IMG/VR virus record: IMGVR_UViG_3300025133_000510
Location: 1 to 27,196 of that record
Reading direction: 5' to 3' (one strand)
DNA length: 27,196 nt
Origin: a virus
The notes beneath the pieces were generated by a model that worked only from the letters and a program-made list of their open reading frames with translations, had not been told where the DNA came from and made no database searches. This document shows, piece after piece, positions 269-26,123 of this stretch. Every line of letters begins with the position of its first letter. The first letter of the stretch is position 1. Both the position numbers and the translations under genes were made by a program.

Positions 269-494
269 CTGAATCTTCCTTTATGGGTAGAGTTGCTTTC
301 TTCGTTGCTTTCTTCGTTGCTTTCTTCACTGTCTTCTTTTTAACAGGTTTAGATTCGGGAATTACTTTAACTCCTGTAAAACTACCAAGGGGTGAGGAGC
401 TTGTAAAATCAGCCCCAGGCATAATCCTAGTCAGCTTTCCATCTATGGATATCAGTAAGGGTACAGACCCCGTATAGTTATATTTATATGTCAT
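243..494 (-). CDS. Small Lys-rich hypothetical protein
   Basis: This is an 83-residue protein I do not recognise. The start is well supported: an AGGAGG Shine-Dalgarno at 505-500 lies five bases before the ATG. The N-terminal half (about residues 1-45) has alternating hydrophobic and polar residues with Gly and Pro turns and looks like a small beta domain. The C-terminal half is a basic tail containing a run of KKAT units encoded by a perfect 12-bp tandem repeat, then an acidic end. It is the first gene after the terminator that follows the capsid gene, and its end overlaps the next start by 26 bases. A small protein with a globular head and Lys-rich tail next to gp23 could be a capsid-associated or DNA-contacting virion protein, but that is inference. 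Confidence 0.7.
   Translation of the reverse strand: MTYKYNYTGSVPLLISIDGKLTRIMPGADFTSSSPLGSFTGVKVIPESKPVKKKTVKKATKKATKKATLPIKEDSDGNPPSST
292..327 (-). repeat. 12-bp tandem repeat, three perfect copies (KKAT units)
   Basis: Three identical consecutive copies of GTTGCTTTCTTC (plus strand) lie in frame inside the small Lys-rich gene and encode KKAT repeats. The copies are identical at DNA level, so the array is recent or prone to slippage; length may vary between relatives without shifting frame. Confidence 0.85.
481..488 (-). promoter_or_regulatory. T4-type late promoter box TATAAATA (inside a gene start)
   Basis: The minus strand reads TATAAATA, a perfect match to the T4 late promoter consensus. 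It falls within codons 3-5 of the small Lys-rich gene, about 40 bases past the terminator stem after the capsid gene. If used, transcription would begin near 474 and serve the gene starting at 268 rather than the complete small gene. The same octamer occurs once deep inside another gene (16121-16128), so chance is possible. Confidence 0.35.
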
Positions 495-587: not shown

Positions 588-2195
588 TTATGATACTCCA
601 GCCGATCTAATGAACGGGCTATAGAGGAAGTTAGCTGTCGGTCCAACCAGACGAATAATCCGATAGAATCTCTCAGCAGGTGCAACAGCAGCTTTGCCGT
701 AGCGAGTGAGGATTCCCTTCCGTGGTTGGAAGGTCTCGGGATCGGTGATTGTTGGCAACTGTTGCAGCGGAATATATGGAGCGTAAACGTATCCAGCATC
801 CATAGCATTACTGCCCTTATAACCAATCATCATCTCATCATCAGGATAAAGAGGATCAACATACAGATCATAGCGACCCATAAACTTACCCTTGAACTGG
901 ATGGCGTTCTTACCAATATTGGTAGGAGCGTCATCACGAACGATGCCACCCTCTAACTTGGATGCTGATTCCAGCATCGAAGCCACGAGAGGTGAAGTAA
1001 GAATCCAACTACCAGGACCACGCAGAGTAGTCTTGTAGATGTCCTGAGCAGCGTAGTTAATCGTTGCCAACAGGTTGGCATAGATATGACCCACATGCTG
1101 CGGAGCATAAGCCGTGCCACCAAATGCTGACGAAGTAAGATCAACAGCGAAGACATTACTAAAGGCACCAGCGGTATCACCTGGAGCATTTGCAAACTGA
1201 TACTGGTATGCTGCTGGGGTGAAGATACCAAGATCACCGCCAGCTGTGCCTGTCTGGCTAGCATCGGGATGCAAACTGCCAGTCCCTTGGAAGTTGTTGG
1301 AGTTGCCCATGTCTAATGAAGCCTTCTCCCAACCAGTAACACTATCAGGATCATAAGCAATCATACGCAAATCTTCGATAAGCTCACGATCAATCTCAAG
1401 TGAAAGCTCCTTGCTCAACAGCGAAGTAAGCTCACCTTCAAGATTGAGGTTGTGATATGCACGAAGATCCTGTGCTGCTTCTAACGTCCACAATGCTCTC
1501 ATCTTACGAGTACGAGAGACAACGGCTTGCTGCTCGATGTGGAAATTAATCTCAGGAATTTGATTACCAGCAAGGACTTCACCTGCGGAAACCGAGTATC
1601 CGAGGATAGTCGAACTCACGGGGAATGCCGCAATCTGACCACCGAAAGTAGTACTAACACCACCCTCATTCCCAGAAAGTACATGTCCCTGATTTACATT
1701 AGCCAGAGTACCATCAAGGTTGAACATGGCACTTGTGTTAGTACTGTTTGAAGTGGTTCCGACACGAGCACCACCAGAAGCATCAGTCGTTCCAGCCATA
1801 ATGGGAGAAGATGTCTGTCCACGGTAGGTCAGGTTGTACTTGCTGTAAACTGTCTGTGAAACGCCACTATCTCCGTGCGCTCTTGTATGACCCAGATAGA
1901 AAATCTGGCTCACAGGACCCTTCATCGGCTGAACACCAACAATACTGTTGGCAATCAGGTCGGGATAGACTCTACGAACGAGAGGAAATGCAAACTTCTG
2001 AAATGTACCAAGCTTACCTACAGTAGTGCTGTTCTCATCCATTCTATCTGATTGCTCGGACAGAATGCACTTTGCTTGATTTTCCAAAAGGGTTGCAGTA
2101 ACCTTACGAGTGTAGTCACTGTCTATACCTTCAAGGACGGGTCCCCACTTCTGCTCTAATGCAGAATCATATTGTGAAATGGGTGTAACTTCCAT
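588..2195 (-). CDS. 23: Major capsid protein (T4 gp23-like)
   Basis: This 535-residue protein is the major shell subunit, close in length to T4 gp23 (521). The diagnostic stretch is residues 71-91, where FPLVRRVYPDLIANSIVGVQ is followed by PM; it parallels the mature N-terminal region of gp23-family capsid proteins. Upstream is a propeptide-like segment of about 47 residues ending in ILSE at 44-47, a good match to the (L/I)xE cleavage rule of T4 prohead protease gp21, placed as in T4 just before the conserved core. The ATG is preceded by AAAGG about 12 bases upstream, a modest ribosome site. Scaffold and protease genes lie directly upstream and a strong terminator follows. The insertion and C-terminal regions have clearly diverged from T4. 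Confidence 0.93.
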   Translation of the reverse strand: MEVTPISQYDSALEQKWGPVLEGIDSDYTRKVTATLLENQAKCILSEQSDRMDENSTTVGKLGTFQKFAFPLVRRVYPDLIANSIVGVQPMKGPVSQIFYLGHTRAHGDSGVSQTVYSKYNLTYRGQTSSPIMAGTTDASGGARVGTTSNSTNTSAMFNLDGTLANVNQGHVLSGNEGGVSTTFGGQIAAFPVSSTILGYSVSAGEVLAGNQIPEINFHIEQQAVVSRTRKMRALWTLEAAQDLRAYHNLNLEGELTSLLSKELSLEIDRELIEDLRMIAYDPDSVTGWEKASLDMGNSNNFQGTGSLHPDASQTGTAGGDLGIFTPAAYQYQFANAPGDTAGAFSNVFAVDLTSSAFGGTAYAPQHVGHIYANLLATINYAAQDIYKTTLRGPGSWILTSPLVASMLESASKLEGGIVRDDAPTNIGKNAIQFKGKFMGRYDLYVDPLYPDDEMMIGYKGSNAMDAGYVYAPYIPLQQLPTITDPETFQPRKGILTRYGKAAVAPAERFYRIIRLVGPTANFLYSPFIRSAGVS

Positions 2196-2204
2196 AATAG
2201 TATA

Positions 2205-2849
2205 TTACCTTTCTTTGGCCTTCGATGTGAACGGCATAAACTTCATGATATCATCCGTTAAGAATGCATTATCAACAAAAGGGGTCTCTATCGAAGGCTC
2301 ATCGACGTTTTCAGAGATCATTACCGCTTGCTCAGAAGACTTAAATGGCTTTTCTCTAGACTCTTCAAGAACCTCAACAGATTCATGAAGAGTACCATTC
2401 TCCTCTTCCAAAATTTCTAATTTAGATGCAAGTGCATTAATAGCAGCTTCCAACTTATTGTTTTCAGTAAAAGACTTCTCAAGCTCTTCAGTAAGAACCG
2501 AGATATCTTCTTTATAGTTGTCATTCTGATCCACAACAGATGCCATTGCACTGTCCGAATCATTTCTGTTCATTTCCAAGGCCATTAAGGACTTCATTGA
2601 TTCAAAGAGGTGAGCATTCTTAAAAGTCTCATTCTCTGCTTCAAGCTCCATTAAGGCATAGCTCTTAACCTCATCAACTCGGGTCCTAAGGAAAGCTTTA
2701 ACCTTAGCTTCTATAAGGCTAACCTTCTCCTGTACCTGCTCCGTGATAACCTCGTCAACCAATTCAGCAATTTCAGTAATTGCCGAATCACTTAGGTTCT
2801 CAGGAAGCAATTCCGAGATTGAATCCATCTTTTCGTTTGAATTTTCCAT
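2205..2849 (-). CDS. 22: Prohead core scaffold protein (T4 gp22-like)
   Basis: I call 214 residues starting at the ATG at 2849-2847. An AAGGAG ribosome site at 2860-2855 lies five bases before it; the in-frame ATG seven codons upstream overlaps the expected transcription start of the late promoter and has no ribosome site. The protein is Glu/Asp-rich, almost without Gly or Pro, and predicted mostly helical with coiled-coil heptads over much of residues 25-165, ending in a short hydrophobic-basic tail (DDIMKFMPF...KAKER). That is the make-up of a gp22 scaffold: an acidic helical core with a tail that can contact the shell. Many LxE tripeptides would allow its digestion during maturation. Position between protease and capsid genes matches T4 (21-22-23). 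Sequence identity with T4 gp22 is not obvious by eye. Confidence 0.82.
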   Translation of the reverse strand: MENSNEKMDSISELLPENLSDSAITEIAELVDEVITEQVQEKVSLIEAKVKAFLRTRVDEVKSYALMELEAENETFKNAHLFESMKSLMALEMNRNDSDSAMASVVDQNDNYKEDISVLTEELEKSFTENNKLEAAINALASKLEILEEENGTLHESVEVLEESREKPFKSSEQAVMISENVDEPSIETPFVDNAFLTDDIMKFMPFTSKAKER

Positions 2850-2873
2850 TAAATCTCCTTGTCTGTACATTAC

Positions 2874-2909: not shown

Positions 2910-3515
2910 TTAATATTTGCGTAGTTTATTCTTTAAAAGGGTTATAAACACCTTCTCTGACGTTGCTTTATTCATTGTAGACTCAACAGTCTCATTAATA
3001 TACTTAGAATTAAGGCTTTCTTCTAGTGATGGGTATGCGCCCTTCGTGGATGGATCAGCAACTAAATCGAAGGTAATTAACTTAAAATCCTCATTAACAT
3101 GCTTAGTTCCATCAGGACAATCAGTTAAAGTACCCATTCCTCTTGAAGATATACCTAACTTAACTCCACCTTTAATTAAAGCTTGGGCTGTGAGACCAGC
3201 TGGAGTATTAAGAAGCTCTGCTTCACCAATCATCTCACTGCCTTTGAATTTAAGCCCTGTAATAAGGTGCGAGACATTCTGAAGCTTAACTTGGTCATGC
3301 TTGGGATGATCTAATTCACCCATTAAGCGTCTCTCATTAAGGGACTCAGTGAGGCGTGTCATTTCTCTTTCGAGAAGCTTTTGCTCATAAACTCTCTTAT
3401 TGTTATTAGGCTCTCCTGCTCTTTGAAAGCAGCCTGAAATTTTCATTGTGCCCTTAGAGGAGGACTCCTCTATGATCTGAATATTATCTAATATTTGTGT
3501 GTCTGTTAATAGCAT
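2910..3515 (-). CDS. 21: Prohead core protease (T4 gp21-like)
   Basis: This 201-residue protein is the maturation protease that trims capsid and core proteins in the prohead; T4 gp21 is 212 residues. The serine-protease signature of this herpes-like/prohead family is visible: GELDHP with candidate catalytic His70, GISSRG with the nucleophile at Ser123 or Ser124, and FDLVADPS (149-156) holding a conserved Asp. The N-terminus has NNNKRVYE (37-44), typical of the family's first strand-helix region. A ribosome site AAGGA precedes the ATG by about seven bases. IIEE at 14-17 could be a self-cleavage site by the (L/I)xE rule. It follows the low-complexity cluster and precedes scaffold and capsid genes, the T4 order. 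Confidence 0.93.
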   Translation of the reverse strand: MLLTDTQILDNIQIIEESSSKGTMKISGCFQRAGEPNNNKRVYEQKLLEREMTRLTESLNERRLMGELDHPKHDQVKLQNVSHLITGLKFKGSEMIGEAELLNTPAGLTAQALIKGGVKLGISSRGMGTLTDCPDGTKHVNEDFKLITFDLVADPSTKGAYPSLEESLNSKYINETVESTMNKATSEKVFITLLKNKLRKY

Positions 3516-3528
3516 TATTTATTTCCTT

Positions 3529-3909
3529 TTATCTTTGAGCCAAGGGCGCACTGTCTAGATCCGCACCAGTTTGCTTTCCGTCCTTTGCTCGCTGCCTCTT
3601 CGCCGCAGCCTCAGCCTTCCTCTTTAGTATCGCATCGTTCTTCTTCGAGAGTTCCGCCCCCCTGTCATCAACCCACGCTGCGACCTTATCTGGCTTGTCT
3701 TGCTGACCATGCCCAACTGTTGGTCCACGGTGCTGCGGCATGTCCTCCATCTTTTTCGTCTGCGGATTGTATCTCTTGGCTGGCCTAGACATCTTGTCAC
3801 GACCACCCCTTGCCTTGTCGGCTGCAATAGCCCTATCAATACGCTCCTGAGTAATCTCATCAAGCTTACTTCTAACTAACTCAAAAATGTTTTCTAATCT
3901 TTTATTCAT
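3529..3909 (-). CDS. Basic low-complexity protein, putative prohead-core/internal protein A
   Basis: A 126-residue protein I do not recognise. Its ATG overlaps the stop of the upstream gene (ATGA) and has an AGGAG site, so translation is well supported. Residues 5-18 (LENIFELVRSKLDE) form a predicted helix nearly identical to residues 44-57 of the neighbouring 120-aa protein, and the duplication is visible in the DNA. The rest is rich in Lys, Arg, Asp, Gln and Ala, lacks a hydrophobic core and is probably disordered. The helix ends in LDE, which fits the (L/I)xE rule for gp21 cleavage. Immediately upstream of the protease gene, T4 has small core genes (67, 68), so a core or internal head role is plausible but inferred. 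Confidence 0.75.
   Translation of the reverse strand: MNKRLENIFELVRSKLDEITQERIDRAIAADKARGGRDKMSRPAKRYNPQTKKMEDMPQHRGPTVGHGQQDKPDKVAAWVDDRGAELSKKNDAILKRKAEAAAKRQRAKDGKQTGADLDSAPLAQR
3863..3900 (-). repeat. Copy 1 of duplicated helix-coding segment
   Basis: This 38-bp stretch matches 4105-4142 at 30 of 38 positions by hand alignment and encodes the shared helix of two neighbouring genes. It points to a partial duplication of one small gene into the other. Confidence 0.75.
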
Positions 3910-4268
3910 TTACTTGCTCCTGGCTTGGGGGTTACTTTTTCTGGGTTCTTATACCAGCTATCGTCTACTGTACTGGGCTTCTTGCCCTTACCTCGGGTCC
4001 ATGTGAATGTAGGTTGCTTTTTGGCCTTCTCTAATGCCTCGTCATGTTGTTTATCCCACGGCTTTCTTGGATCGTTCGACCTGTCCCTCTGAGCCGTCTC
4101 TGAGAGCTTACTTCTAACTATTCTAAAAATACGTTCTACTCTAGACTCGCTTGTATCTTCTGCCGCCTTCTTCTCCTCTTCCTCCCTCTTCCTCTTTGCC
4201 TCCTCCGCTCTCGCCTTGATCGCAGCATCTCGCAGAATATCTTTTGCTCTCGGTCCTTTATATGCCAT
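3906..4268 (-). CDS. Charged low-complexity protein, putative prohead-core/internal protein B
   Basis: A 120-residue unrecognised protein. Residues 8-37 are an almost continuous run of Lys, Arg, Glu and Ala, likely one long charged helix. Residues 43-57 (SRVERIFRIVRSKLSE with its flank) repeat the helix found at the start of the next gene's product and end in LSE, a candidate gp21 cleavage site that would release the basic C-terminal 63 residues. The C-terminal part is Lys/Pro/Trp-containing and basic. An AGGG ribosome site lies about nine bases before the ATG. It starts two bases after the preceding stop and ends in an ATGA overlap with the next gene. Role by context only: virion core or packaged protein. 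Confidence 0.72.
   Translation of the reverse strand: MAYKGPRAKDILRDAAIKARAEEAKRKREEEEKKAAEDTSESRVERIFRIVRSKLSETAQRDRSNDPRKPWDKQHDEALEKAKKQPTFTWTRGKGKKPSTVDDSWYKNPEKVTPKPGASK
4105..4142 (-). repeat. Copy 2 of duplicated helix-coding segment
   Basis: Partner of the segment at 3863-3900, 30 of 38 bases identical. Here it encodes residues 43-55 of the 120-aa protein, whereas in the other gene it encodes the N-terminus, so the 120-aa protein carries an extra charged helix in front. Confidence 0.75.
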
Positions 4269-4270
4269 GA

Positions 4271-4660
4271 TTAAGCCCTTCTTCCCATTCTTCTTCTATT
4301 CTTAGTGGTGTCACTAATTTTTCTTCCAGCCCCGTACAGACCTTCGATTCGTTTATCTCTCTTACCCGCATGTTTAATCTTAGTTCTTTGTGCGTAGCCA
4401 ACTATGCTTCTCCAAGATGATGATGGGGTTGAACTTCCAGGTGTGAAACCTTTAGCTACTAACCCCTTACTCTTCTTACCCCAACCTGCTTCAGTAGAAA
4501 CATACAATCTTCCAGCTCGTTTCGTAGAAAACTTAGTACCAGGACCCATACCGCTTGTTAGAGCATCCTTTATTGTATTAAAGATTTGAACCTTACTCTT
4601 ACGAGCCTTGACACGTTCACTAGACTTACCATTTTCTGTTATAATATCTGTAAGTTTCAT
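4271..4660 (-). CDS. Strongly basic small protein, putative packaged DNA-binding protein
   Basis: A 129-residue unrecognised protein, strikingly rich in Lys, Arg, Gly and Ser with very few acidic residues after residue 15. It begins MKLTDIITENG; IITE at 6-9 matches the (L/I)xE cleavage rule and would leave a short targeting peptide of nine residues, the arrangement seen in T4 internal proteins. Single aromatic residues (W59, W83, Y88 region) spaced by Gly/Ser suggest a small fold or DNA contacts, and the C-terminus is an Arg cluster (NRRRMGRRA). The ATG overlaps the stop of the upstream gene (ATGA); no strong ribosome site is seen, so translation is probably coupled. Function is inferred from charge and position. 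Confidence 0.72.
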   Translation of the reverse strand: MKLTDIITENGKSSERVKARKSKVQIFNTIKDALTSGMGPGTKFSTKRAGRLYVSTEAGWGKKSKGLVAKGFTPGSSTPSSSWRSIVGYAQRTKIKHAGKRDKRIEGLYGAGRKISDTTKNRRRMGRRA

Positions 4661-5073
4661 CTTGCTATTTTCTTAAAGGCTTTCGATAGTCTCATTTTTC
4701 TATCCTGCTCTGCTTTAAAAGGGTCGGCACACTCACCTGCCACACTGACACCCAACCCCCCGACACCCGTCTGCTCAGTAATAAGAGTTTTCATCTCACT
4801 TACCATACCCTTAAGTTCCTGAATCTCTTCATAGAGTATAGATAAGATATCATTCTCTACGCTTTGAGGCTCTTCCTGAACCTCTGTTTTAGCAGGAGAA
4901 GAATCTTCTCCTAATAATTTTTGCATAAAAGAGTCTGGTACTTCTACATTAGATATATCCATTTGGTCTCCAAAAGCATCTACAGGAGCATTAACAGGTT
5001 GTGAGTACTCCGTGGCTACAGGGGTACGCCCACCTTGATTCATTATTGATTCAGCCATGTCACCTATATTCAT
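4657..5073 (-). CDS. Putative prohead-core protein with central coiled coil
   Basis: A 138-residue unrecognised protein. Residues 1-75 are polar and acidic with Pro and Gln, probably disordered. Residues about 75-103 form a strong amphipathic helix or coiled coil (VENDILSILYEEIQELKGMV and on), followed by a Gly/Val-rich turn (TGVGGLGVSVAG) and a basic amphipathic C-terminus (RKMRLSKAFKKIAR). The acidic-coil-basic order resembles small head-core proteins more than enzymes. GGGAG lies about ten bases upstream of the ATG. It is sandwiched between the acidic 136-aa gene (18-base gap) and the basic 129-aa gene (ATGA overlap). LITE at 97-100 and LLGE at 53-56 could be protease sites. Confidence 0.72.
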   Translation of the reverse strand: MNIGDMAESIMNQGGRTPVATEYSQPVNAPVDAFGDQMDISNVEVPDSFMQKLLGEDSSPAKTEVQEEPQSVENDILSILYEEIQELKGMVSEMKTLITEQTGVGGLGVSVAGECADPFKAEQDRKMRLSKAFKKIAR

Positions 5074-5091
5074 TTTTTAAAACTCCCTGGG

Positions 5092-5502
5092 TTATTCACC
5101 TAAGTTATCAAGAATAGCTTGAGCAAGCTCTTCGTCGGTGAACTCCTCGATATCATAGCTCTCATTTAATACATTAAGTGAGTCACGAACGAAGTTATAA
5201 AGATCTTCTTCATTAATGGGAAAGCCACCCTCCTCATCATTCTCGATATCTTCGTAATCCTTTTCATCCTCACTTAAGAGATCTTTACAAAAGTTATCGA
5301 ACAGCTCACTGATATCGTTCTCAGTCAGACTATTAACTTCAGCCTCATTTAAAGATTCAAGCAAAGTCTGAAAAAACATCTCATGAAGAGCCTTGTCTTC
5401 TATAGCCTCGTTAATATCTTTCTGGGACTCTCCCCATGTACCCTGTGTTACATTCTCATTTATAACTGAATTTACAAACTCTTCACTTACTTCATTAATC
5501 AT
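5092..5502 (-). CDS. Highly acidic small protein, putative prohead-core component
   Basis: A 136-residue, very acidic, predicted all-helical protein with almost no basic residues in the second half. AAGGAG lies about eight bases before the ATG. It contains many LxE/IxE tripeptides (for example LLESL, SLTEN, LLSED, VLNES), so a gp21-type protease could cut it into small peptides, which is the fate of T4 gp67, also a small acidic core protein encoded just upstream of gene 21. I see no sequence match to gp67, so the parallel rests on composition, size and position. Its charge is opposite to the neighbouring basic proteins, which would allow complex formation or charge balancing in the prohead. 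Confidence 0.72.
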   Translation of the reverse strand: MINEVSEEFVNSVINENVTQGTWGESQKDINEAIEDKALHEMFFQTLLESLNEAEVNSLTENDISELFDNFCKDLLSEDEKDYEDIENDEEGGFPINEEDLYNFVRDSLNVLNESYDIEEFTDEELAQAILDNLGE

Positions 5503-5523
5503 TACTAATTCTCCTTATATGAA

Positions 5524-6507
5524 TTATCTAGGTCTAGCAGTACCACCTGAGCTACCTGAACCAATCACCTTCGTAACTGCACGTTTAGCTCTGTTAAGTA
5601 TTCCCCCGTGTCTGATCCCTGAGGACCATCCAGTTTTTTTCGTATCATCAGGGGCAGTATTTTTTTCTGTATCATCAGGGGCAGTATCTTTTTCTGTATC
5701 ATTTCCTTTGGACCTACCCGCTATTTCTGGGGTTGTACTAGGTCTGTCTTTGGACTTCGGATTGGGAGTTGTATCTGTGGATCCCGTGGCATCAACATGA
5801 TCGGGGCGATCTGTACCACCACTACCAGGTCTACCTGTTTCTGCATACTTAGTTTCCCCATGGGGATAAGCAGTTTGACCTGGGGCTGTAAAACCCGAAT
5901 ATTTTCCTCCCAAAAATCTTTTTAGAACACTAAAATCGCCTGGCTTTTTTGTATCCCCATCCTCTGGAGCTTCCGTAGCCTTTTGCTTTGGAAGCGGTGG
6001 AGGTGTTTCCTTTTGCTTTGGAAGCGGTGGAGGTGTTTCCTTAGTAGGCTTCTCTTGAGGCTCACTTTGAGACCCATGACCAAAGGCATGAGCTTGCTTT
6101 TCCTTTTGTCCTGGTACTTCTACCCCACCTTCTGGGTGTCCCCCTCCTGTTGCAGCCGTCACTGCGGCTTTGTGAGCTTCAGGATTCTTTTTCTCCCACT
6201 CATGCCTAGGCATACCTTTAGGACGACCTTGTGCTGTTGCAACTCGCTCTACAAGCCTACTAAACATATCAGTAACAGACTCTCTCGGCCCATCAGGAAC
6301 ATCCTTTGTCATGCCACTCTTAACCTTCTTAACCTTATCAGGTGTATGGGTAGAATCTTTCTGTGCCGTGTCATTTCTATGCTTAAGTAATTTAGCCAAG
6401 TTTCTAATCTTACAAGCTCTACCCTCAGAGGACCTTGATGGGTGCGGAACCTTCTCTAATTTCAGCTCCACACTCATTTCAGTTAATAGTCTAGTAAAGT
6501 CTTTCAT
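5524..6507 (-). CDS. Disordered Pro/Lys/Thr-rich protein, putative internal head protein
   Basis: A 327-residue unrecognised protein. It begins MKDFTRLLTEMS; LLTE at 7-10 fits the (L/I)xE cleavage rule and would give a ten-residue leader. Residues 10-100 are basic with a helix around VTDMFSRLVERVATA, followed by a segment PKGMPRHEWEKKNPEAHKAA. The middle and C-terminal parts are Pro, Gly, Lys, Asp and Thr repeats, including two perfect KETPPPLPKQ units and two DTEKNTAPD-like units, certainly disordered. AAAGG precedes the ATG by seven bases; the start immediately follows the stop of the 598-aa gene. Alternatives are a flexible virion linker or a packaged host-interaction protein; nothing enzymatic is visible. 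Confidence 0.72.
   Translation of the reverse strand: MKDFTRLLTEMSVELKLEKVPHPSRSSEGRACKIRNLAKLLKHRNDTAQKDSTHTPDKVKKVKSGMTKDVPDGPRESVTDMFSRLVERVATAQGRPKGMPRHEWEKKNPEAHKAAVTAATGGGHPEGGVEVPGQKEKQAHAFGHGSQSEPQEKPTKETPPPLPKQKETPPPLPKQKATEAPEDGDTKKPGDFSVLKRFLGGKYSGFTAPGQTAYPHGETKYAETGRPGSGGTDRPDHVDATGSTDTTPNPKSKDRPSTTPEIAGRSKGNDTEKDTAPDDTEKNTAPDDTKKTGWSSGIRHGGILNRAKRAVTKVIGSGSSGGTARPR
5642..5695 (-). repeat. 27-bp tandem repeat, two copies plus partial third
   Basis: Bases 5642-5668 and 5669-5695 differ at a single position and a seven-base partial third copy follows. In frame they encode acidic-basic DTEKNTAPD-like units. The first copy holds a run of seven T (A on the coding strand), a possible slippage site. 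Confidence 0.8.
5981..6040 (-). repeat. 30-bp perfect tandem repeat encoding KETPPPLPKQ
   Basis: Bases 5981-6010 and 6011-6040 are identical. In frame they give two copies of a ten-residue unit containing PPPLP, a polyproline-II type motif. Perfect identity implies recent duplication or homogenisation. Confidence 0.9.
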
Positions 6508-8304
6508 TTACCAGCCTTTAGCTTCCCTAATTCTATCTAAAGCTTTTCCTAAGTTAAGGTTGCGACTAGCATTCACTGCGCTAGCCTTGGGCTCATCACT
6601 CATGGGTGCTGCTGGTCTGGCAGTTGCGCCAGCTGGCTTTCCTTTGGCTGCTGCTCTCCTCGCCCTCTTTCTTGTAACGTCAGCGGCTCTAGATCTTTCT
6701 CTTCGTCCGACCTGCTCTCCAGACACTTTCCCCACTCTCTGCTTTTGCAGAGAATCATGTTTACCAACTTCTACGTCAGTCTTAGCTTGGGCACCCTCTG
6801 CTTTCTTTCTAGCAGCAGCAGCAGTATCCATTTCTTGTGAAGTTCCTCCTGCTCTAGCTGCAATATCAGTCGCAGCAGCTTTTCTGGAGACCTGACCTCG
6901 TGCTTTTTGAACATCCTTGATGTCATGATCTCCTGGAGCCCTTAAAGTCTTCTTAGCGGCACTAGTATCAGTCTTGTCCGCTAACTCTGAAGCTCGTGCA
7001 TGTTTTTGCTGCGCTCTTTCTATAGCATTCTTACCTTTTTCAGAGAAACCGCCAGCCTCTCGACTCGCAAGACTATCACCACCTGATGCAGCCTCCTTCG
7101 CTCTTGCATCTCTCTTACCTTGACCCGCAGCTTTCAACGCCGCAATTTCCTCTGGGGTCTTTCGGCCCTTCTTCTTTGGTTCTGCTGAAGCCTCTGGTTT
7201 TGCTGGAGCCTCTGGTTTTGCTGGAGCCTCAGACTCAGGACTTGCCATGGTTTGGGTTGTCTGAATGGTATTGGCTTTTCTTGCAGCCTCTCTCTTCTTG
7301 ACATCGCCCCTCTTATACTCCTCATCCTTATCTCTACCCTTATGACCCATTCTCGATGCAAGATCACCAGTCAGCCTGTCAGTTTTTAATCCACTACCAA
7401 CATCGGTATCTCTTTGTGCTTGTGCCCTCCTCAGATCGCCTCGTCTATATCCTGAAGTTCCACTTACAGCCTTTTTGATTCTCCGACCTATTCTACCGAG
7501 TAAGCCCTCAATAACGAATTCTAAGTCGTCTAATTCTTTTTCTTCTAGAATCTCACTTATATTACTCTCATCAATGAAATCAGCAAGACCCTCTAAGTAG
7601 TCTCCAAGATAAAGATAATTATCGTCCTCTAAAGCACCTGGAACTTCTGCTTCTTCTATCTTATCACTCTGGGCTAAAAGTCCGTCAACCCAAATCAGAG
7701 CTTCATAAATATCATCAACCTCAATACCCTCTGCAATGATCTCCTCATGAAGCTGCATTCTGTTATCTTGATAGCTTTCAACTAAATTAAGGGTGTCTTC
7801 ATCTAGTTCAGACTCCATTAATAGGCCACCATCAATATCTTTTGAGAGCTTAATAAGGTCTTGAACATCCCTATGCTCATCTAACTTCTGCTTAAGAACA
7901 TCACTAAGGGTTTCTGAATCCTGTCTGGGAACAGGATCCGTTCCACCTCCCGCTCTCCGCTCCTTCCGAATCTGCTCATTACGTTTCGCCATCTCCTCTT
8001 GAGCCTTCTTATTAGCCGCTGGTTTTGCTGCCTTTGCAGCAGCCAGAATATCTGCTATTTTCTTACGAGCAGCTACATTCTCAGGCTTGTTTCGATCTTC
8101 CATCCGTCTCTGATGGCGTTGACCCGCAGGGGTCTCTGGTCGTGAGGCGTCCCCTCTCCTCGTCCTTTCTGATTCGTACCCACCAGCTTGTCCTTCAGTA
8201 AGACCTGTAGCCTTAGGGTTTTTAACCTCGTTAAGACCTGCTTGCTTCCAAGCACCTTTATCAACAACATTAGCTATAAAGCTTTCATCAATTCTGAATT
8301 CCAT
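6508..8304 (-). CDS. Large charged low-complexity protein, putative packaged/core protein
   Basis: A 598-residue unrecognised protein with three zones. Residues 1-140 are basic and polar, rich in Ala, Arg, Lys and Glu. Residues about 140-270 are acidic, helical and Leu/Ile-containing (for example ADFIDESNISEILEEKEL), the only part likely to fold. Residues 270-598 are basic Ala/Lys/Arg/Thr low complexity with short EAPAKP repeats, similar in composition to histone H1 tails. It begins MEFRIDES; RIDE at 4-7 fits the (L/I)xE cleavage rule. AAGGA lies seven bases before the ATG. It opens the low-complexity cluster after a 96-base gap and abuts the next gene with no spacing. A DNA-compacting internal head protein is my preferred reading; a scaffold-like structural protein is also possible. 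Confidence 0.72.
   Translation of the reverse strand: MEFRIDESFIANVVDKGAWKQAGLNEVKNPKATGLTEGQAGGYESERTRRGDASRPETPAGQRHQRRMEDRNKPENVAARKKIADILAAAKAAKPAANKKAQEEMAKRNEQIRKERRAGGGTDPVPRQDSETLSDVLKQKLDEHRDVQDLIKLSKDIDGGLLMESELDEDTLNLVESYQDNRMQLHEEIIAEGIEVDDIYEALIWVDGLLAQSDKIEEAEVPGALEDDNYLYLGDYLEGLADFIDESNISEILEEKELDDLEFVIEGLLGRIGRRIKKAVSGTSGYRRGDLRRAQAQRDTDVGSGLKTDRLTGDLASRMGHKGRDKDEEYKRGDVKKREAARKANTIQTTQTMASPESEAPAKPEAPAKPEASAEPKKKGRKTPEEIAALKAAGQGKRDARAKEAASGGDSLASREAGGFSEKGKNAIERAQQKHARASELADKTDTSAAKKTLRAPGDHDIKDVQKARGQVSRKAAATDIAARAGGTSQEMDTAAAARKKAEGAQAKTDVEVGKHDSLQKQRVGKVSGEQVGRRERSRAADVTRKRARRAAAKGKPAGATARPAAPMSDEPKASAVNASRNLNLGKALDRIREAKGW
7190..7230 (-). repeat. 18-bp tandem repeat encoding PAKPEA units
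   Basis: Two perfect 18-bp copies (7190-7207, 7208-7225) plus the start of a third lie in the basic C-terminal zone of the 598-aa gene and encode alternating Ala-Pro-Lys-Glu units, typical of extended linkers. Confidence 0.75.
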
Positions 8305-17282: not shown

Positions 17283-17918
17283 TTAAAAGCTTATCGTCCA
17301 ACGGAAAACTAATGCAAACTCACTAGTTTTTGCTATATCAACAAAAGGTCTATATGCCACTAAGGGCGACCTAACATTAACCCCAGTTAATGGATGTTCA
17401 GATACCCCCGCTAAAGGGTTGTGCATGAATAAACCTATCTCATTTACAAGATGTCCATTACAAGCACCCTCAGGAATAAACATAGAATAAGTTACTGAAG
17501 TAGGTGATGATTTTCTTATACTATTCTGAGGTATATAGAGGAACCATTGCCCTCCTGCTCCTGGAGTTTGAATTCCTCCGTCTGGGGCCATAAGGTCATG
17601 GGTGTCTAGAACAACATCAATTGATGTGCCGTATTCGGCAGCCCCTCCCGCATGACCTAGTGCCGATACAAGGGAGTATTGGGATGAATCATAACTATCT
17701 ATTACCGTATTACCACTTACCCCAATCTGAGCCCACCTAACCTGATAATCAGTTATGGAGTCTGCCCCTGAGCCAGCGAATAATAAAGCTAACCCTACCC
17801 CCATGCCCGAAGTAATTACATTATGATCGTCAAAAATCTTCTCCTCGTCACCACTTGGGAAGATCTTCCATATCTCTAAATTACCAGAGACTTCTAATTT
17901 TTCTATATCATTACTCAT
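17283..17918 (-). CDS. Baseplate/fibre-associated paralogue 3 (211 aa)
   Basis: One of three adjacent related proteins. Near residues 13-36 it has EIWKIFPSGDEEKIFDDHNV followed by IT, matching the HNIL/HNVI strand of the 244-aa neighbour. The C-terminal signature is CNGHLVNEIGLFMHNP (about 155-170), then LVAYRPF and FALVFRWTISF. The fold is probably an all-beta domain of about 200 residues. It is the shortest and perhaps most minimal copy. A weak AAAGGG site lies 14 bases before the ATG within a TATATATA-rich 31-base gap. Position between the gp7/gpI-like wedge protein and the beta-helix spike suggests an adaptor linking spike or fibre to baseplate; no named T4 counterpart is evident. Confidence 0.75.
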   Translation of the reverse strand: MSNDIEKLEVSGNLEIWKIFPSGDEEKIFDDHNVITSGMGVGLALLFAGSGADSITDYQVRWAQIGVSGNTVIDSYDSSQYSLVSALGHAGGAAEYGTSIDVVLDTHDLMAPDGGIQTPGAGGQWFLYIPQNSIRKSSPTSVTYSMFIPEGACNGHLVNEIGLFMHNPLAGVSEHPLTGVNVRSPLVAYRPFVDIAKTSEFALVFRWTISF

Positions 17919-17949
17919 ATCTTATATATATACCCTTTATATTATAGGA

Positions 17950-18684
17950 CTACGGAATAAACCATTTTGAACTGATGCGGGAGTCTTCGGATAGTATATT
18001 AACATGCCTATCAAACGCTGTAAAGGCTCCTAACCACCCTATAGCCCAATCAAAGGTTAATGTGTAGTTTTTTGTTTTAGTAAACGCTGTATCAAATTTT
18101 TTATAAGCTAACATTAAAGGGTGATCTTCTGTCAATCCTAAGGGGTTCTTACAAAATAACCCAACCTCAGTTATCGACTGCCCATTACAGGTATGCTCAT
18201 CCAAATTGATTCTATACTGAACTGAGTCTATAAAATACTTAGTAGTATACTCTGGTTCTATTTCTATAAACCACTCTTTACCTGGAGTAGATGAAACAAT
18301 CGAAGAGGCGGTTCCAGCTGCCGAGGTCATAAAACACTCGCCCCAGTTAGTACCATCCGTAGACGCCTGAAACCCTCTATGCCCTTCAAATAACCGTAAA
18401 TCGGTCCTATCTCCATAATCCCCAGACTCCATAGAGGCACACACTTGGAAGAAGTGAGAGGATGTTGCAAGGAGCGCATTTTCTGCATCATCGAACCCAA
18501 CAGTGGATGTTCCTATCTGAAAGTAAGAGGGAACAAAATCTACACTTTTCTGTGAACCTGTATCTGTTAGCATTTCTACAACATTAACAGCAAGACCTTT
18601 TGTTAAAATATTGTGATCATCTAATAGAATTTCAGATGATCCGTTTTTATTATGTTTAGTTACTACTAAATGTCCTGCTAACAT
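17950..18684 (-). CDS. Baseplate/fibre-associated paralogue 2 (244 aa)
   Basis: I start it at the ATG 18684-18682, which overlaps the previous stop (TAATG) and has AAGGGG at 18698-18693, eight bases away; a GTG three codons upstream would sit on the ribosome site. The N-terminus (GHLVVTKHNKNGSSEILLDD followed by HNIL) and the C-terminus (CNGQSITEVGLFCKNPLG, LMLAYKKF, YTLTFDWAIGW) align with the 211-aa protein. A 25-residue tail extends past the shared core. Likely an all-beta virion adaptor protein. The paralogy is seen in the sequence; the adaptor role is inferred from position. Confidence 0.77.
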   Translation of the reverse strand: MLAGHLVVTKHNKNGSSEILLDDHNILTKGLAVNVVEMLTDTGSQKSVDFVPSYFQIGTSTVGFDDAENALLATSSHFFQVCASMESGDYGDRTDLRLFEGHRGFQASTDGTNWGECFMTSAAGTASSIVSSTPGKEWFIEIEPEYTTKYFIDSVQYRINLDEHTCNGQSITEVGLFCKNPLGLTEDHPLMLAYKKFDTAFTKTKNYTLTFDWAIGWLGAFTAFDRHVNILSEDSRISSKWFIP

Positions 18685-19787
18685 TATACCCACCCCTTAG
18701 TATCGAAGCATATCTTCCACGTTATATATAGGTCAACATGATTTTGAAATCCTGCTGCCGCTGCTTTGTCTATTATATCAGATAAACTTTCAACAAAAGT
18801 TTTCTTTGAAAAGAGTTTATATATCCTCTTTGAATCACCATTAGAGTCTACAAAAGAAAAAGGATTAGTACCCCCATTCTTTAAAGTTTCTTCTAAATCA
18901 ATAGTCCACAACCCCAGCGTCTTAATACCCCCATACAGATTAAGAAAACTTACGTCAGGAGCACTTAACGTAAAGGTGTGAGCGACAGCTGGGGAGCCTA
19001 TAAAAGCCCCAGATGTTGTAACAGCAGTGTCAGCACTAGCATTACATCCAGAAACAACCATTCCTATTGTATGATCTTGGTTTTCTGTGTGAAGGTAGCC
19101 TCTAATAAAGCCCCTCTTATCAACGGCATGTACTGCGTTATAATGCCCAGACAACCCCGTCGAGGAAGTGTAAGCTTCGGAATATGGGGTAGCATTAGAT
19201 GATACGAGATAAACATCAATACCGTCACTAGGAGCATAACATCCCATAAAAACAGTAGAGGCATCGTGGATTGAACTTGGTCCAAAAAACATGTTCATAT
19301 TATGTCCCATCTGCCCGTTACTCGTTGCTGAAGTAGGATTCAAAATACCAGTATCTATCTCATACTGCGTAGTTGTTGATGCTTCTAGGCTAATGTCTAA
19401 CGGATCTGGGTAGGAGGGGAGGTGGTGAAGCCTAAGAACTGAACTTGCAGGGTAATCACCGATCACTTTTATTTGGGGTATAAGCACAGAGTCTGAGTAA
19501 GCCGTAGCATATTCATCACTTAAAGAAGAACTATAGTAATGCCCTGCTCGTCCTGGCCCGTAATACGTCTGTGCTGCCTTTCCTATGGATACAGCCTGTA
19601 CTATGTAATTGGAAGTATCAAGAACGGAGGAAGAATCGGTTAGCCCCCTGATACTGGAGGGGGTTACCATAATATTGGCAATTATCTCCGAAGCACCGTC
19701 AACTATTAAATTGTTTTCTTTAGCTACTAATTGAGACTCGCCTGTTGATAATATAGAAAATACCTCTATTTCTCCCCTAATTCTCAT
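18684..19787 (-). CDS. Baseplate/fibre-associated paralogue 1 (367 aa)
   Basis: I start it at the ATG 19787-19785, one base after the previous stop and with AAGGA at 19800-19796; the longer TTG-start reading lacks a ribosome site and would overlap the upstream gene. The N-terminus (RGEIEVFSILSTGESQLVAK followed by ENNLIV) aligns with the start of the two following genes' products, and the end (VDLYITWKICF) with their final strand. LGLWTIDLEETL...GTNPFSF at about 287-310 corresponds to the EVGLF...NP motif of the others. A central insertion of roughly 120 residues, rich in Ser, Tyr and His, is unique to this copy. Probably the largest member of a triplicated baseplate-adaptor family. Confidence 0.75.
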   Translation of the reverse strand: MRIRGEIEVFSILSTGESQLVAKENNLIVDGASEIIANIMVTPSSIRGLTDSSSVLDTSNYIVQAVSIGKAAQTYYGPGRAGHYYSSSLSDEYATAYSDSVLIPQIKVIGDYPASSVLRLHHLPSYPDPLDISLEASTTTQYEIDTGILNPTSATSNGQMGHNMNMFFGPSSIHDASTVFMGCYAPSDGIDVYLVSSNATPYSEAYTSSTGLSGHYNAVHAVDKRGFIRGYLHTENQDHTIGMVVSGCNASADTAVTTSGAFIGSPAVAHTFTLSAPDVSFLNLYGGIKTLGLWTIDLEETLKNGGTNPFSFVDSNGDSKRIYKLFSKKTFVESLSDIIDKAAAAGFQNHVDLYITWKICFDTKGWV

Positions 19788-19788
19788 A

Positions 19789-22700
19789 CTATGATTCCTT
19801 AATCTCAATTGACGTTAGCTGATTATGGCCTGAAGATATAGCACTTACATACATAGCTGGGTCAGATCTATAATTTATTCTAGACCCACCACTAGCTTCA
19901 AAGACACTTGAAGTAGAAAATGCATCTCTACTGGCTACGCCATCTCTTAAGTAATTATAGAACTCAAAAGCTGTTCTGAGATCTTTTGCTTGTAAAGAAT
20001 ACTCAGTAAGCTCACGCTCTACGCTAGCTGCGTCCTTCCAAGTGAGATCCTCCATCTCTATCTTATTAAAAAGAATAAACTTACTCTCATCAGGAGTAAA
20101 GGCAAATATCTCAATAAAGTACTCTTGAGAAGTAGTATGCAAGTTACTTTGTCCTTGAGTACTCATTTTTCTTTTATCAAATGTTGAGCATCCACAAAAC
20201 TCATCACTTAAAACCCAGTTGTTAGTATTAAATGGGATATTAATAGAATTAAACATTAGGGTATTCACTTTAGAAATAGGACCCTTTTTCTCTGGAGCAC
20301 AACCAAGCCTAGGATCAGGAGAAACAGGAGGAGGACCCGCACCAGTAGCCACAGGAGTAGGTGGGCTTTGATTACGACACGACTCGGGGGTCACGACTGT
20401 AACTGCGGTTGGGGGCTCCTTTTGAGAATCAAGAACACTCATAGACGGAAATTGGTAGGTATGACTCAAACTTTTAACAGTATTTACACCATTCGCACCA
20501 ATACCCTCTATTACCATAGGGGAATCATCTACAAAGGGTGTCGGTGTATTACGAGTAGTAGATTCCCCAGAGATCATGGATACTTTAGTTTTTTCCCACG
20601 CACCCTTAGGAGTATATGACCACACATACTTTGATGAAGTGTATGATCCATCTTTATTTCTATCTAAAAGAGTTTGAGTTTTTGTATGAATCCATACACC
20701 CAGCTTCTGACCTCCCAGACGCATCCCAGTTAAATCCATGTTTAAGGCATCAATCTTCAAATTATAGTCATGATCTGGTATCAAGAAGTTTCTCGTATTA
20801 TCAGTACTAGCGGGGTTTATTTTTACTTTAAGTCTTGGAAGTCTATTCTGGTTTGCGGGGCGAATATGCTTAATTAACAAATTATCAACAAGGAACCTAT
20901 TAGATCCCCAATCAGGAGTACCCTTACTTTGAGACTCATCATTACTCCTATCTAATCTAATCAAAGAGAATGTAGGATTTTGAAAAAGATCTGATTCAGA
21001 ACCCGAAGTGTCTATAAATTCTATGGAGCTTACTAAATGCTCATTGCGCCACTCGTAATCTTGTACATAGATGTCATCTGTAGCATCAGCAGAAACGGAC
21101 CCAAGACTACTCCCATGTACACCTCCAGAGGGACTAAGGACCCCACTACCTCCACCCCAGCAAATATCCACCTCAGAAGCGAAATCAAGAGAGGAAGCTA
21201 CTAAGCGTTTACCAATACCATCTGTCCCTATAGCAGATCCGTCTACAGAGAAGTTATAGTTATAAATATAAGGACCATAGGTATGTGTTAGGATATCGGG
21301 TCCTGTATTCGTTTTGTAATTTAAATTTAATCCGTCACCATTATAAAAATCTAACCACTCATTATAAAATTTATTCAGCTTTTTACCAAACTTAAAATGG
21401 ATAAGATTGTTTAAGCTATTATTACTAATTTCCGATTCTTCTAATTGATTAGCAATAGATCCAACAATATCAAGATAAGTGTACTTATGCCATGAGCTTA
21501 AGTCTACAGGACTTATCTTAGGCGAAGATACATCCCAATTCACGTTAACTGATCCGTCTGTATTGTAGTATCCTGAAACTATAGAGGAAGCCTCTGTTAA
21601 CTTATCAAATCTTAAAACTTTATGCATTAACCCAATCATAGGATTTAGATTGTCTCTAAGTAGGAAGTTGAAACAAGCAGACGGGGCGGGGGATGTTTTT
21701 CCTCTAGACGGAAAGGTGTTGGATGTATCAACTTCAAAATAAGTATTTGAAGAATGCAAGTTCTCACAAATACCCCAAACCTCAGATATTGCAGAGGTAT
21801 CCAATAAATTACCAAACCCGAAAGCGGGATCACTCTTTAAAGGCACACTTTCAAATGACATAGCAGACGGCACAAATCCTAAAGGCATACATCCAATACT
21901 ACTAGTAAATCCAACCGCTGATAAGGAGACATTACCTGGAGTCCCCTTACCATCCCGCAGTGTAACCCCTTGAAGGGGTAAAGAGCTTTTAAAACTACGC
22001 CTTCTTATAGCATTTCTGGGGAGGCTAAGAAAGTTATTACGAGTAAATCTAGATTCATATGAACTATCAACTTCGGATCTCTTAAAAGTGGTTCTATCGG
22101 CTCCTACATCAGTTGCACAAGCACCAAACCCGTGTAAGCTCGTAGAAGCATCATAGTACCCATCACTAACAGAAGTATAAGGGGACATCCTAGTACAGGT
22201 TTTACTTGCTATTTCAGGAGCAGGACCATCAGCAACAGAGGATACATCGAGTATAGCCTCTGGGATGGAGTGGGCGGGTATAACCTGATCAAGGGTTCGG
22301 AGAACTTGCTGTACACCTCTACCCGTATTATGCTTTGCTAACCTATTTGTAAAATCAAAAGAACTAGCATTAAAAACTATTTTAAAGTGGGACGATTTAC
22401 CATTCCACAAAGACAAATAGTTTATAGGATTAGGAGTTCTATCCTGAATATTTGCTACTACAGAAGAGAAATTTAAAGGGGTGGTGGCAGAGGGTGTAAA
22501 CATCAACCACCCATTACTAATAGTTGTAAGCTCAGTAGTTTCTGTTACATGTTCCTTAATATAATCCAACACATGTTGGGCAAACACCTCAGTCACTCCA
22601 AAGCAAATTAGCTTTCTTTTTACAGCCTTAAGAAAGTTAGAGGTTATGGTACAATTTCTATAGTACTTTTCCATCTCCCAAGGGGGATTAGAATGTATTT

Positions 22701-24498: not shown

Positions 24499-26123
24499 TA
24501 AACTTCTACTACATTAATTGAAAAGTTATTGAGTTGTATTATCTCATTGAAATCTACTTTAATAGATTCTCCTATATTATCTATAGTGGCATATCTTACA
24601 TCTGGTAACTGAAAAATTCGTCTCGCCAAGTCAGCAGAGATAAATTCCTTTCCAAAATCTGTGTTATCAACATGGAAGAAATCTAATATCTCAAAAGCAA
24701 CTTGAGCCTTAATATCTTCTTCCTTAGCTGTTAATTCTTTATCTATCCTCACTGTCATAACCAAATCAAGGGTTCTAATGACACCATCAGCGATTACAAC
24801 GTGATCAGTTAGCATTTTCTTAACCTCTATCTCAGTTAATAGATCCTTCTTAAACTGAGGAGTGGCTCGTGATAATTGAAGATCATTAGCTTTCTCTAGG
24901 ACATAAACGTCAATTATATTAGCAGAACTATAAGCGTCTCTGGTTACTGCTGTTGCTTTCCCGATAGTTCCTTGGTTACTTTGAAAAGTATTAGCAAAAG
25001 TAATGTAATCTTCTAAGGTTACTACTCTGTCCTGCCTCTTGAATGTGTAGGGAGCCCACTTCTTAGCATGTTCAACAGTTTCTGCTTCTTGACCTCCAAT
25101 ACCTGGTGTAGTGTTCTCTAAAGTCCACTCTAAAGTTTTAGAAGTTGTCCCCTCAAACCCAGTTATCTGAACATTCATAGCTTCCTTAGAAAGGTTGCCT
25201 CTTGACCCGCCACCAACCCTATAGATAATTGTGAACTCAGAGTTTTCTGAGGGACTTATTCCTAAAATGCCATCCCCAAATATAACAGTAGCCCCATAAG
25301 ACTCATCATACACAGTTTGAAATACTTTGTCTCCTTCGCCAGAAGCAGAGAACATTTTAGGAACTTCTCTGTACCTTCCAGTGGCCTCTGCATTGTAGAC
25401 ATCAGTGACAAAGACCTCAACACTACCATCTACTATGGGAGCGTCCGTCAGCGTTATGGTCTTTACACCCTCCGTAGTGTTGAATATGCCCCTCTGAACA
25501 GTCAAGGCACCCTCTACTAATGCTATATTGGAAAAGAGCGAACTCGTGTCATTGGCTGCATCAGAGACGGGGATGGTAAGAGTTGCTAACTCATCAGTTA
25601 AACCCTCTAAAGTACCGTCTGCTGCGACTCTGTACATAGTATAACTTACAGGAGCCGCATCCTGCTCAGAGATAATGGAGTATACCCTGTTGGCGGGGGG
25701 GAATGTTAGAGTAGTTACATCTCCATCAGTAAAAGGATTAGTAGAAGTACCTTTAGTACTTGTTATTTGAGCACCCATAGCTGCTGCTTTGGGTCCTAAC
25801 AGTCTAACTCCAATAAGCTCTAATAGTTTTCTAAGATTTCTTCTATTCTTTACTGTTCTTATAAAGTGCTCATTAGCAATCATATCCGTCTTTAATGAGT
25901 TAACAGCCCCCATATAAGAAACAAGTTCAATAAGCATCATTCCTAAATCAGATTCAGAAAAGTTTTGGTAATCTAAGGGGTATACTGATTTTATATAAGA
26001 TATCAGCCCGTCCCGTATATCCAAAAAATCATTAGCAGCAAAGTTAATGAAGTCTATTTTTTTTCTATCTGGTATCGTAACCAGTTTTAAGAAATCAGAG
26101 TCTACAGTTCCCGAAAATGTCAT
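24498..26123 (-). CDS. 6: Baseplate wedge protein (T4 gp6 / baseplate J-like)
   Basis: A 541-residue protein forming the wedge ring around the tail hub. Residues 54-105 hold the N-terminal family signature (ESDLGMMLIELVSYMGAVNS, then ANEHFIRTVKNRRNLRKLLE). Around 278-315 is the baseplate-J core: FGDGILGISPSENSEFTIIY followed by RVGGGSRGNL. The C-terminal part (about 440-541) has the RTLDLVMTVRIDKELTAKEE stretch and a final strand pair usual for gp6. T4 gp6 is 660 residues, so this is a shorter version. The ATG overlaps the gp25 stop (ATGA), and GGGAG lies about ten bases upstream. The gp25-gp6 pairing is conserved across contractile injection systems. Confidence 0.92.
   Translation of the reverse strand: MTFSGTVDSDFLKLVTIPDRKKIDFINFAANDFLDIRDGLISYIKSVYPLDYQNFSESDLGMMLIELVSYMGAVNSLKTDMIANEHFIRTVKNRRNLRKLLELIGVRLLGPKAAAMGAQITSTKGTSTNPFTDGDVTTLTFPPANRVYSIISEQDAAPVSYTMYRVAADGTLEGLTDELATLTIPVSDAANDTSSLFSNIALVEGALTVQRGIFNTTEGVKTITLTDAPIVDGSVEVFVTDVYNAEATGRYREVPKMFSASGEGDKVFQTVYDESYGATVIFGDGILGISPSENSEFTIIYRVGGGSRGNLSKEAMNVQITGFEGTTSKTLEWTLENTTPGIGGQEAETVEHAKKWAPYTFKRQDRVVTLEDYITFANTFQSNQGTIGKATAVTRDAYSSANIIDVYVLEKANDLQLSRATPQFKKDLLTEIEVKKMLTDHVVIADGVIRTLDLVMTVRIDKELTAKEEDIKAQVAFEILDFFHVDNTDFGKEFISADLARRIFQLPDVRYATIDNIGESIKVDFNEIIQLNNFSINVVEV

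Follow-up and report, generated by a model that had tools for sequence, protein, structure and literature searches.

The stretch analysed here, called the window throughout, comprises the 27,196 nucleotides of the IMG/VR virus record IMGVR_UViG_3300025133_000510, and its subject is a cluster of seven consecutive minus-strand open reading frames (ORFs) of 598, 327, 136, 138, 129, 120 and 126 amino acids, here A598 to G126, or A to G (Table 1). An earlier note, made from the letters alone, had described them as highly charged, mostly disordered and unrecognized genes lying in the place of the T4 prohead-core genes 67 and 68, and had proposed a system of internal head proteins that compact DNA or are injected into the host. 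All seven ORFs were located at these lengths, and the placement is correct: the cluster sits immediately before genes for gp21-, gp22- and gp23-like proteins, is transcribed in the same direction, and has four-base overlaps at D/E and F/G. The tail-gene context assigned to the upstream side has a single basis, baseplate-wedge PHROG matches of genes at 24498-26611. An assembly artefact is ruled out because the same genes recur at 99-100% identity in other metagenomes, on contigs of 98.5 kb (L003) and 16.5 kb (L002).

Table 1. Genes of the cluster, the neighbouring head genes and segments discussed in the text (window positions)
Feature	Position	Strand	Remarks
A598	6508..8304	-	apparent first core gene; N-terminal third acidic and LxE-rich, C-terminal chain basic
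A598 residues 2-24	8233..8301	-	EFRIDESFIANVVDKGAWKQAGL; N-terminal module common to the relatives' acidic first core gene
A598 residues 143-255	7540..7878	-	acidic stretch; 12 of 16 [LI]xE sites
A598 residues 256-598	6511..7539	-	basic chain (+29); single [LI]xE at 594; predicted retained fragment
B327	5524..6507	-	basic disordered orphan; [LI]xE only at residues 10 and 87
B327 residues 1-10	6478..6507	-	MKDFTRLLTE; targeting-peptide-like start, by form only; profile tests not significant
C136	5092..5502	-	strongly acidic (-36); 13 [LI]xE; gp67-like by charge, place and sites
D138	4657..5073	-	conserved protein assigned to the core; family signatures DISxVxVPDxF and EMTxVGxLGV
E129	4271..4660	-	conserved and basic (+24); takes the position of gp68; layout like that of internal proteins
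E129 residues 1-9	4634..4660	-	MKLTDIITE; predicted cleaved N-terminal targeting peptide
F120	3906..4268	-	basic; inserted between E and gp21
F120 residues 43-60	4089..4142	-	RVERIFRIVRSKLSETAQ; helix ending in LxE, common with G126
G126	3529..3909	-	basic; inserted between E and gp21
G126 residues 4-21	3847..3900	-	RLENIFELVRSKLDEITQ; helix ending in LxE, common with F120
gp21-like	2910..3515	-	prohead protease (Peptidase_S77), without basic tail
gp22-like	2205..2870	-	scaffold by position, charge (-29) and 15 [LI]xE sites
gp23-like	588..2195	-	major capsid protein

The proteins are highly charged, as claimed: charged residues make up 27-46% of each, against 15-24% in ten upstream window genes, with net charges of -36 for C, -11 for D, +6 for A, +10 for G, +11 for F, +14 for B and +24 for E. 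Their division into basic and acidic members is apt for strongly acidic C, but A598 is not uniformly basic, carrying -25 over residues 151-250 and +29 over residues 256-598. Disorder likewise fits A, B, F and G, but not E129, which has a predicted alpha/beta core (predicted local distance difference test score ~84 over residues 21-100) and belongs to a family with 23 invariant columns in 28 relatives. None of the seven has a convincing PHROGs or Pfam match, and the D and E families and the acidic family described below are unmatched in the PHROG and Pfam libraries used. A fold search with E129 in PDB and BFVD gave no match at E <= 0.001, and no E129 relatives were found in cultured phages.

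Relatives place part of this cluster firmly beside the head genes. In IMG/VR, >100 related loci were found, in which the usual order is tail genes, a PAAR-like gene (assigned by inspection), a strongly acidic gene (mostly 107-197 amino acids), D, E, gp21, gp22 and gp23; a second clade instead has a small membrane or lipoprotein gene in the PAAR-like position. Among loci fetched by E alone, the less biased sample (60 distinct E loci, 59 with room for gp21), gp21 lay downstream of E in 59 of 59 and directly so (<60 bp) in 56, and D lay upstream of E in 57 of the 60. The three exceptions to direct adjacency are the window phage, where F and G intervene (756 bp), and two loci from the L084-086 group (523-541 bp), the window phage's neighbours in the gp23 tree, where a different basic gene separates E from gp21. 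B, F, G and the body of A598 were found only in the same virus, and relatives hold different proteins at the corresponding places. Because the D-E-gp21 linkage holds across distinct E loci, we assign D and E to the conserved head-core genes, and B, F, G and most of A to lineage additions. Conservation of the cluster across related genomes, which the earlier note had named as a check, thus applies to D and E but not to B, C, F and G, which are lineage-specific. The PAAR-like gene (~100 amino acids) that stands just before the core cluster in relatives has no counterpart there in the window phage (around 8304-8401).

In T4, gp21 cuts core proteins after L/I-X-E (PMC9026906, PMC9958956). This motif, [LI]xE, occurs 39 times in A to G combined against 15.4 expected (z 6.6; 0 of 500 shuffles), and at six control spacings there is hardly any excess (largest z 1.9). 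Most sites fall in A (16 versus 6.3 expected) and C (13 versus 4.6); the window's gp22 has 15 versus 5.4 expected, and its tail genes have 47 versus 38.7, which is not significant. The same excess is seen in the relatives' acidic family (160 versus 88 expected, 1.8x), D (128 versus 51, 2.5x), E (37 versus 9.6, 3.8x) and gp22 (762 versus 328, 2.3x), where other spacings are near or below expectation save for lesser excesses, for instance of LxxE in D and of LxD in E; as the pooled sequences are related, z-values are inflated and the comparison among spacings is the informative part. In the relatives' gp23 and in one tail family the excess is unspecific, extending over several spacings. Judged by these counts, the T4 prohead-protease motif is specifically enriched in the cluster, as it is in the known substrate gp22. 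Sites lie at residues 7-37, 143-255 and 594 of A598, 10 and 87 of B, 57 of F, 10 and 18 of G and 56-100 of D, and throughout C.

A598 appears to be the first core gene, hugely enlarged by its basic part, because its N-terminal module agrees with that of the relatives' acidic gene. A 23-column position-specific scoring matrix (PSSM) gave this N-terminus 23.0, a score as high as none of 2000 shuffles, and no other ORF of 3,536 exceeded 13.0 except members of the acidic family and one gene at L032/L033, a neighbouring basic gene that itself carries the acidic-family N-terminal module (24.6). Profile alignment with hhalign agreed for residues 2-28 (E 0.0034), and the D stretch DISxVxVPDxFxxxLL also resembles the module (29 columns, E 3.5e-4, probability 37%). 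A whole-length hidden Markov model of the acidic family, run against the window, was driven by composition, with a shuffled sequence scoring best, and was replaced by the N-terminal PSSM. The link of C136 to the same family as a sequence homologue was not significant by PSSM or profile alignment, and its reading as an acidic core protein is a putative one, drawn from position and charge. In many relatives (L005, L007, L022, L032, L038, L044 and others) the acidic gene encodes HxCPLCES, a zinc-ribbon-like CxxC element that is absent from A598 and C136.

The E family has a different distribution of sites. An early [LI]xE, no more than 16 residues from the start, is present in 53 of 60 E relatives; residues 1-16 hold 38 sites (10 expected) and the rest of the chain holds none (4.8 expected, P 0.015). 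With cleavage predicted at that site, the family has the apparent layout of the T4 internal proteins, namely a targeting peptide, a cut and a basic chain. In the second clade, basic proteins resembling E129 by eye occur away from the head cluster (G004 36138-36557; G007 66463-66849).

Proteins of similar build also occupy a second locus, ~50-65 kb from gp23 in contigs G002 and G005, which encodes many small basic proteins beginning MNSYDRIYNLLTE or MNWKQRIYESLTE, each followed by A, and similar sequences. Second-locus genes lie at 103763-110620 and 3661-5267 of G002 (contig of L048), 66900-72389 of G005 (contig of L090) and 94582-95350 of G001 (contig of L003). An early [LI]xE is found in 18 of 19 of these proteins, two of the 19 coming from G001, with 24 sites versus 7.1 expected; the remainder of the chain is not enriched (7 versus 11). 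The two basic genes of G001 (94582-95043 and 95099-95350, ~50 kb away) start with MKTELINKVFVRLLEKLNE and MKTEIVDRVFKLVSMKLAE, and their links to F and C stand at the level of the shuffled maximum.

Within the cluster, F and G have a helix in common: in an all-against-all comparison of 18-mers taken from the N-terminal 60 residues of 98 ORFs on the 98.5-kb contig, the pair scored 54 against shuffled maxima of 35-38 and ranked second, after two upstream structural paralogues. B, F and G agree by inspection with the layout of a peptide followed by a basic chain. A strict pattern, F..[LVI]..KL.E, matching F, G and a pair of distant genes on the 98.5-kb contig against 0.18 expected, was picked post hoc and is not relied on. 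Derivation of the F/G helix from the C-terminal helix of gp21 was rejected, shuffles reaching the score of G126 in 25 of 2000 cases and that of F120 in 533 of 2000. Two genes downstream of gp23 (G001 40822-41385), a basic protein (187 amino acids, +18) carries ERIDRIYQLVLEGE, which resembles the F/G helix.

A single targeting-peptide profile for all lineages, trained on the G002 and G005 second locus, was tried and dropped: the window genes were not significant, with C136 alone at p 0.015, uncorrected. Each lineage seems to have its own targeting peptide, because profiles fail to transfer between lineages. Among 785 ORFs, the E-family peptide profile ranked the N-termini of several gp21 and gp22 proteins high, and put T4 IPII and IPIII within the top 7.9%, and IPI within the top 15%.

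In ~22 distinct relatives, including L022, L032, L035, L041, L087 and L089-L095, gp21 itself is extended by ~75-400 mostly basic, low-complexity residues. The protease core ends mostly in LxE in these tailed forms and in KLxK in tail-less ones. LxE at the core end accompanies a tail in 18 of 23 tailed forms versus 2 of 34 (Fisher 1.6e-8), a p-value that overstates the association because the distribution of tails over the gp23 tree can be explained by only 3 changes of state; among the rows counted as tailed, that of L046 (227 amino acids) is doubtful. We regard the junction as a suggestive pattern, not as a strong statistical result. Several tailed gp21 proteins contain further helix-plus-LxE stretches inside the tail.

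The cluster can be compared with several known systems. As in T4, where the order is 67-68-21-22-23, small genes stand immediately before gp21-gp22-gp23, and T4 gp67 (PIP) is acidic and gp68 has a basic C-terminal half; here, however, there are three conserved families and up to four extra genes where T4 has two, the portal gene is not adjacent, and E looks trimmed rather than degraded. The remote homology that the earlier note had thought worth searching for was not found: hhalign of E against gp68, D against gp67 and gp68, and the acidic family against gp67 gave probabilities <=3%, although single T4 sequences were used and a distant relation is still possible. Homology to the T4 internal proteins was not detected either. 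The E family and the second-locus proteins have in common with T4 IPI, IPII and IPIII the short N-terminal peptide, the [LI]xE site and the basic remainder, as well as the use of one common peptide by several different proteins; but the peptide sequence differs and is lineage-specific, and T4 keeps its internal-protein genes apart from gp21, while here E and the extra genes of the window belong to the head cluster. By analogy, the cluster would work like T4 gp67 and gp68 plus the internal proteins, with no homology to them detected.

The C-terminal propeptides of prohead proteases (T4 gp21, SPN3US gp245, phiKZ gp175) offer a further parallel. T4 gp21, like SPN3US gp245, has a cleavable C-terminal propeptide (PMC9026906, PMC7411985), and gp245 removes 64 residues that were proposed to target the protease to the core (PMC7411985). 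The gp21 of many relatives similarly continues past the core, with LxE at the junction, but the tails are 75-400 residues long and mostly basic, and the window phage's gp21 has none. Ejection or inner-body proteins of the giant phages phiKZ and SPN3US are also abundant in the head and bear long propeptides that a gp21-type protease cleaves (PMC9026906, PMC10052503). From their descriptions they are set apart by a different cleavage motif (S/A-X-E, A-X-E); a relation in sequence is not known, and a virion RNA polymerase context is lacking here.

We conclude, with a probability of roughly 77%, that the cluster holds the genes for the prohead core and for some of the internal-protein cargo of a distant T4-type head, probably a Far-T4-like one. 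This conclusion is built on computed observations: the position of the cluster, the conservation of D and E, the motif enrichment, the helix common to F and G, and the link of the A598 N-terminus. Most likely, maturation consumes the acidic, LxE-rich parts as scaffold core, while the basic chains remain with the DNA as internal proteins. C, D and the stretch of A up to residue 255 resemble core proteins that are broken up, a class that for the most part leaves the head in T4; E, F, G, B and the C-terminus of A are candidates for staying there. An internal head protein system, as proposed in the earlier note, is supported as to its head-core position (D-E-gp21 synteny in ~60 loci, motif enrichment), but the seven proteins are not of one class. 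DNA compaction or injection, also proposed there, is compatible with T4 precedent.

In the mechanism that we envisage, the cluster proteins would co-assemble with gp22 inside the forming capsid by means of short amphipathic peptides, and activated gp21 would then cut after [LI]xE. C136, most of D138 and residues 1-255 of A598 would be cut up and exit the head; E129, G126 and B327 would each lose a short N-terminal peptide, and F120 its first half. The basic chains predicted to remain (A 256-598, +29; E 10-129, +25; G 19-126, +10; B 88-327, +8; F 58-120, +7) would neutralize packaged DNA and, more speculatively, may pass with it into the host. Cleavage, retention and DNA binding are what we infer for these proteins from T4, where the core composition and the targeting peptides of internal proteins are described (PMC9026906, PMC9958956) and where the steps have precedent, general DNA neutralization excepted (PMC9958956, PMC9026906).

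Several points weigh against this interpretation. The borders of the leftover chains were set at the last site, so that their lack of sites is partly circular; the evidence from the motif is statistical, and the relatives do not provide independent sequences; and in B, E, F and G taken alone the counts are too low for significance. T4 gp67 itself is not enriched (3 versus 2.5 expected), and neither is the acidic protein of a Prochlorococcus-linked contig; because of these two cases, the [LI]xE test is neither necessary nor sufficient. Additionally, targeting-peptide profiles from other lineages miss the window genes.

The alternatives differ mainly in the fate they assign to the basic chains. 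That B, F, G and the expansion of A are unrelated, fast-evolving cargo, such as injected anti-defence or host-takeover proteins, beside core genes D and E, is the strongest competitor, though still an unlikely one. These proteins were found only in this virus, relatives have different proteins in the same places, and T4 IPI is an injected restriction-enzyme inhibitor (PMC9958956); yet the extra proteins are low-complexity, charged and mostly without a predicted fold, unlike folded IPI, and none is linked to any host target. Less probable again is that all seven are core or scaffold filler, wholly degraded and expelled, with nothing basic retained. The E-family chains lack [LI]xE past residue 16, B, F, G and A 256-590 have none beyond the last N-terminal site, and similar basic proteins with a single N-terminal site occupy a separate locus in relatives, all of which speak against complete degradation, even though A, C and D suit it in their position and in their density of [LI]xE, the C-terminal half of T4 gp68 is likewise basic, and T4 gp22, gp67 and gp68 are cut into small peptides (PMC9958956).

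We think it improbable that the motif excess reflects the L/I-E spacing of amphipathic helices or coiled coils, unrelated to a protease: there is a slight excess of ExL in several sets, and of LxxE in D and gp22, but such periodicity would raise LxxxE most, and LxxxE is at or below expectation. The motif also marks the core/tail junction of tailed gp21 and occurs in the removable N-terminal region of gp23. Baseplate and structural genes upstream, and the PAAR-like gene before the cluster in relatives, might suggest that the ORFs continue a set of tail or baseplate proteins; this is very unlikely, as the conserved linkage of D and E is to gp21, and composition and motif content agree with gp22, not with tail genes.

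Beyond the window, it is possible, though we hold this tentatively, that a large uncultured marine phage group has a modular internal cargo, in which lineage-specific targeting peptides are placed on many unrelated basic proteins at two loci and the cargo comes as free genes, as E extensions or as cleavable protease tails. Such a system is of a known kind; what looks new in it are the families, the division of the cargo between two loci and the large size of the protease tails. Exact cleavage sites are now predicted for PHROG- and Pfam-unmatched families that adjoin the capsid genes in a widespread group of uncultured marine phages. This gives a new angle on a T4 question, namely by what means core and internal proteins are directed into the prohead and what the C-terminal propeptide of the protease is for. 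Should the basic chains be retained in the head, the internal-protein set would be unusually large and changeable, with a bearing on DNA packing and on delivery into hosts.

The best match of the window's gp23 among 50,697 phage records is only 30% identical; identity to T4 is 26% for gp23 and 31% for gp21, which matches PF03420 (E 6e-23, Pfam) and phrog_207 (E 2e-51, the PHROG head maturation protease). By sequence, both are clearly T4-type proteins; the window's gp22 has no PHROG family match of its own. In a quick tree, gp23 groups with Rhodothermus phage RM378 and a 595-kb uncultured phage, apart from T4 and the cyanophages, a placement unsure owing to long branches and obtained from a tree not including the Far-T4 contigs of the 2015 paper. 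The phage is probably Far-T4-like, a group of uncultivated phages described in 2015 (PMC4360716): its gp23 lies on the RM378 side and has KWxPxLEG...ATLLENQ in common, but is only ~29% identical to RM378, and the 2015 description does not mention gp21, gp22, gp67 or gp68 (PMC4360716).

One related locus (L233) lies in a 130.6-kb contig (QCKN01000003.1) of a Prochlorococcus single-cell genome, that of Prochlorococcus sp. AG-409-P03, with the acidic gene, D, E, tailed gp21, gp22 and gp23 in the same order. Its presence in this assembly may mean a host link or else a co-sorted virus.

Among minor observations, an Rfam scan of the window found nothing, and a tRNA scan of the 98.5-kb contig found none. 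The T4 late-promoter sequence TATAAATA occurs 4 times in the window against 2.5 expected, which is not significant; two copies, at 2874-2881 and 481-488 (minus strand), lie just upstream of gp22 and downstream of gp23. Three successive genes at 17283-19808 (211, 247 and 374 amino acids) have a common N-terminal motif of the type DDHNxxTxG; two of these paralogues match phrog_5417 (function unknown), and similar paralogue sets are present in relatives.

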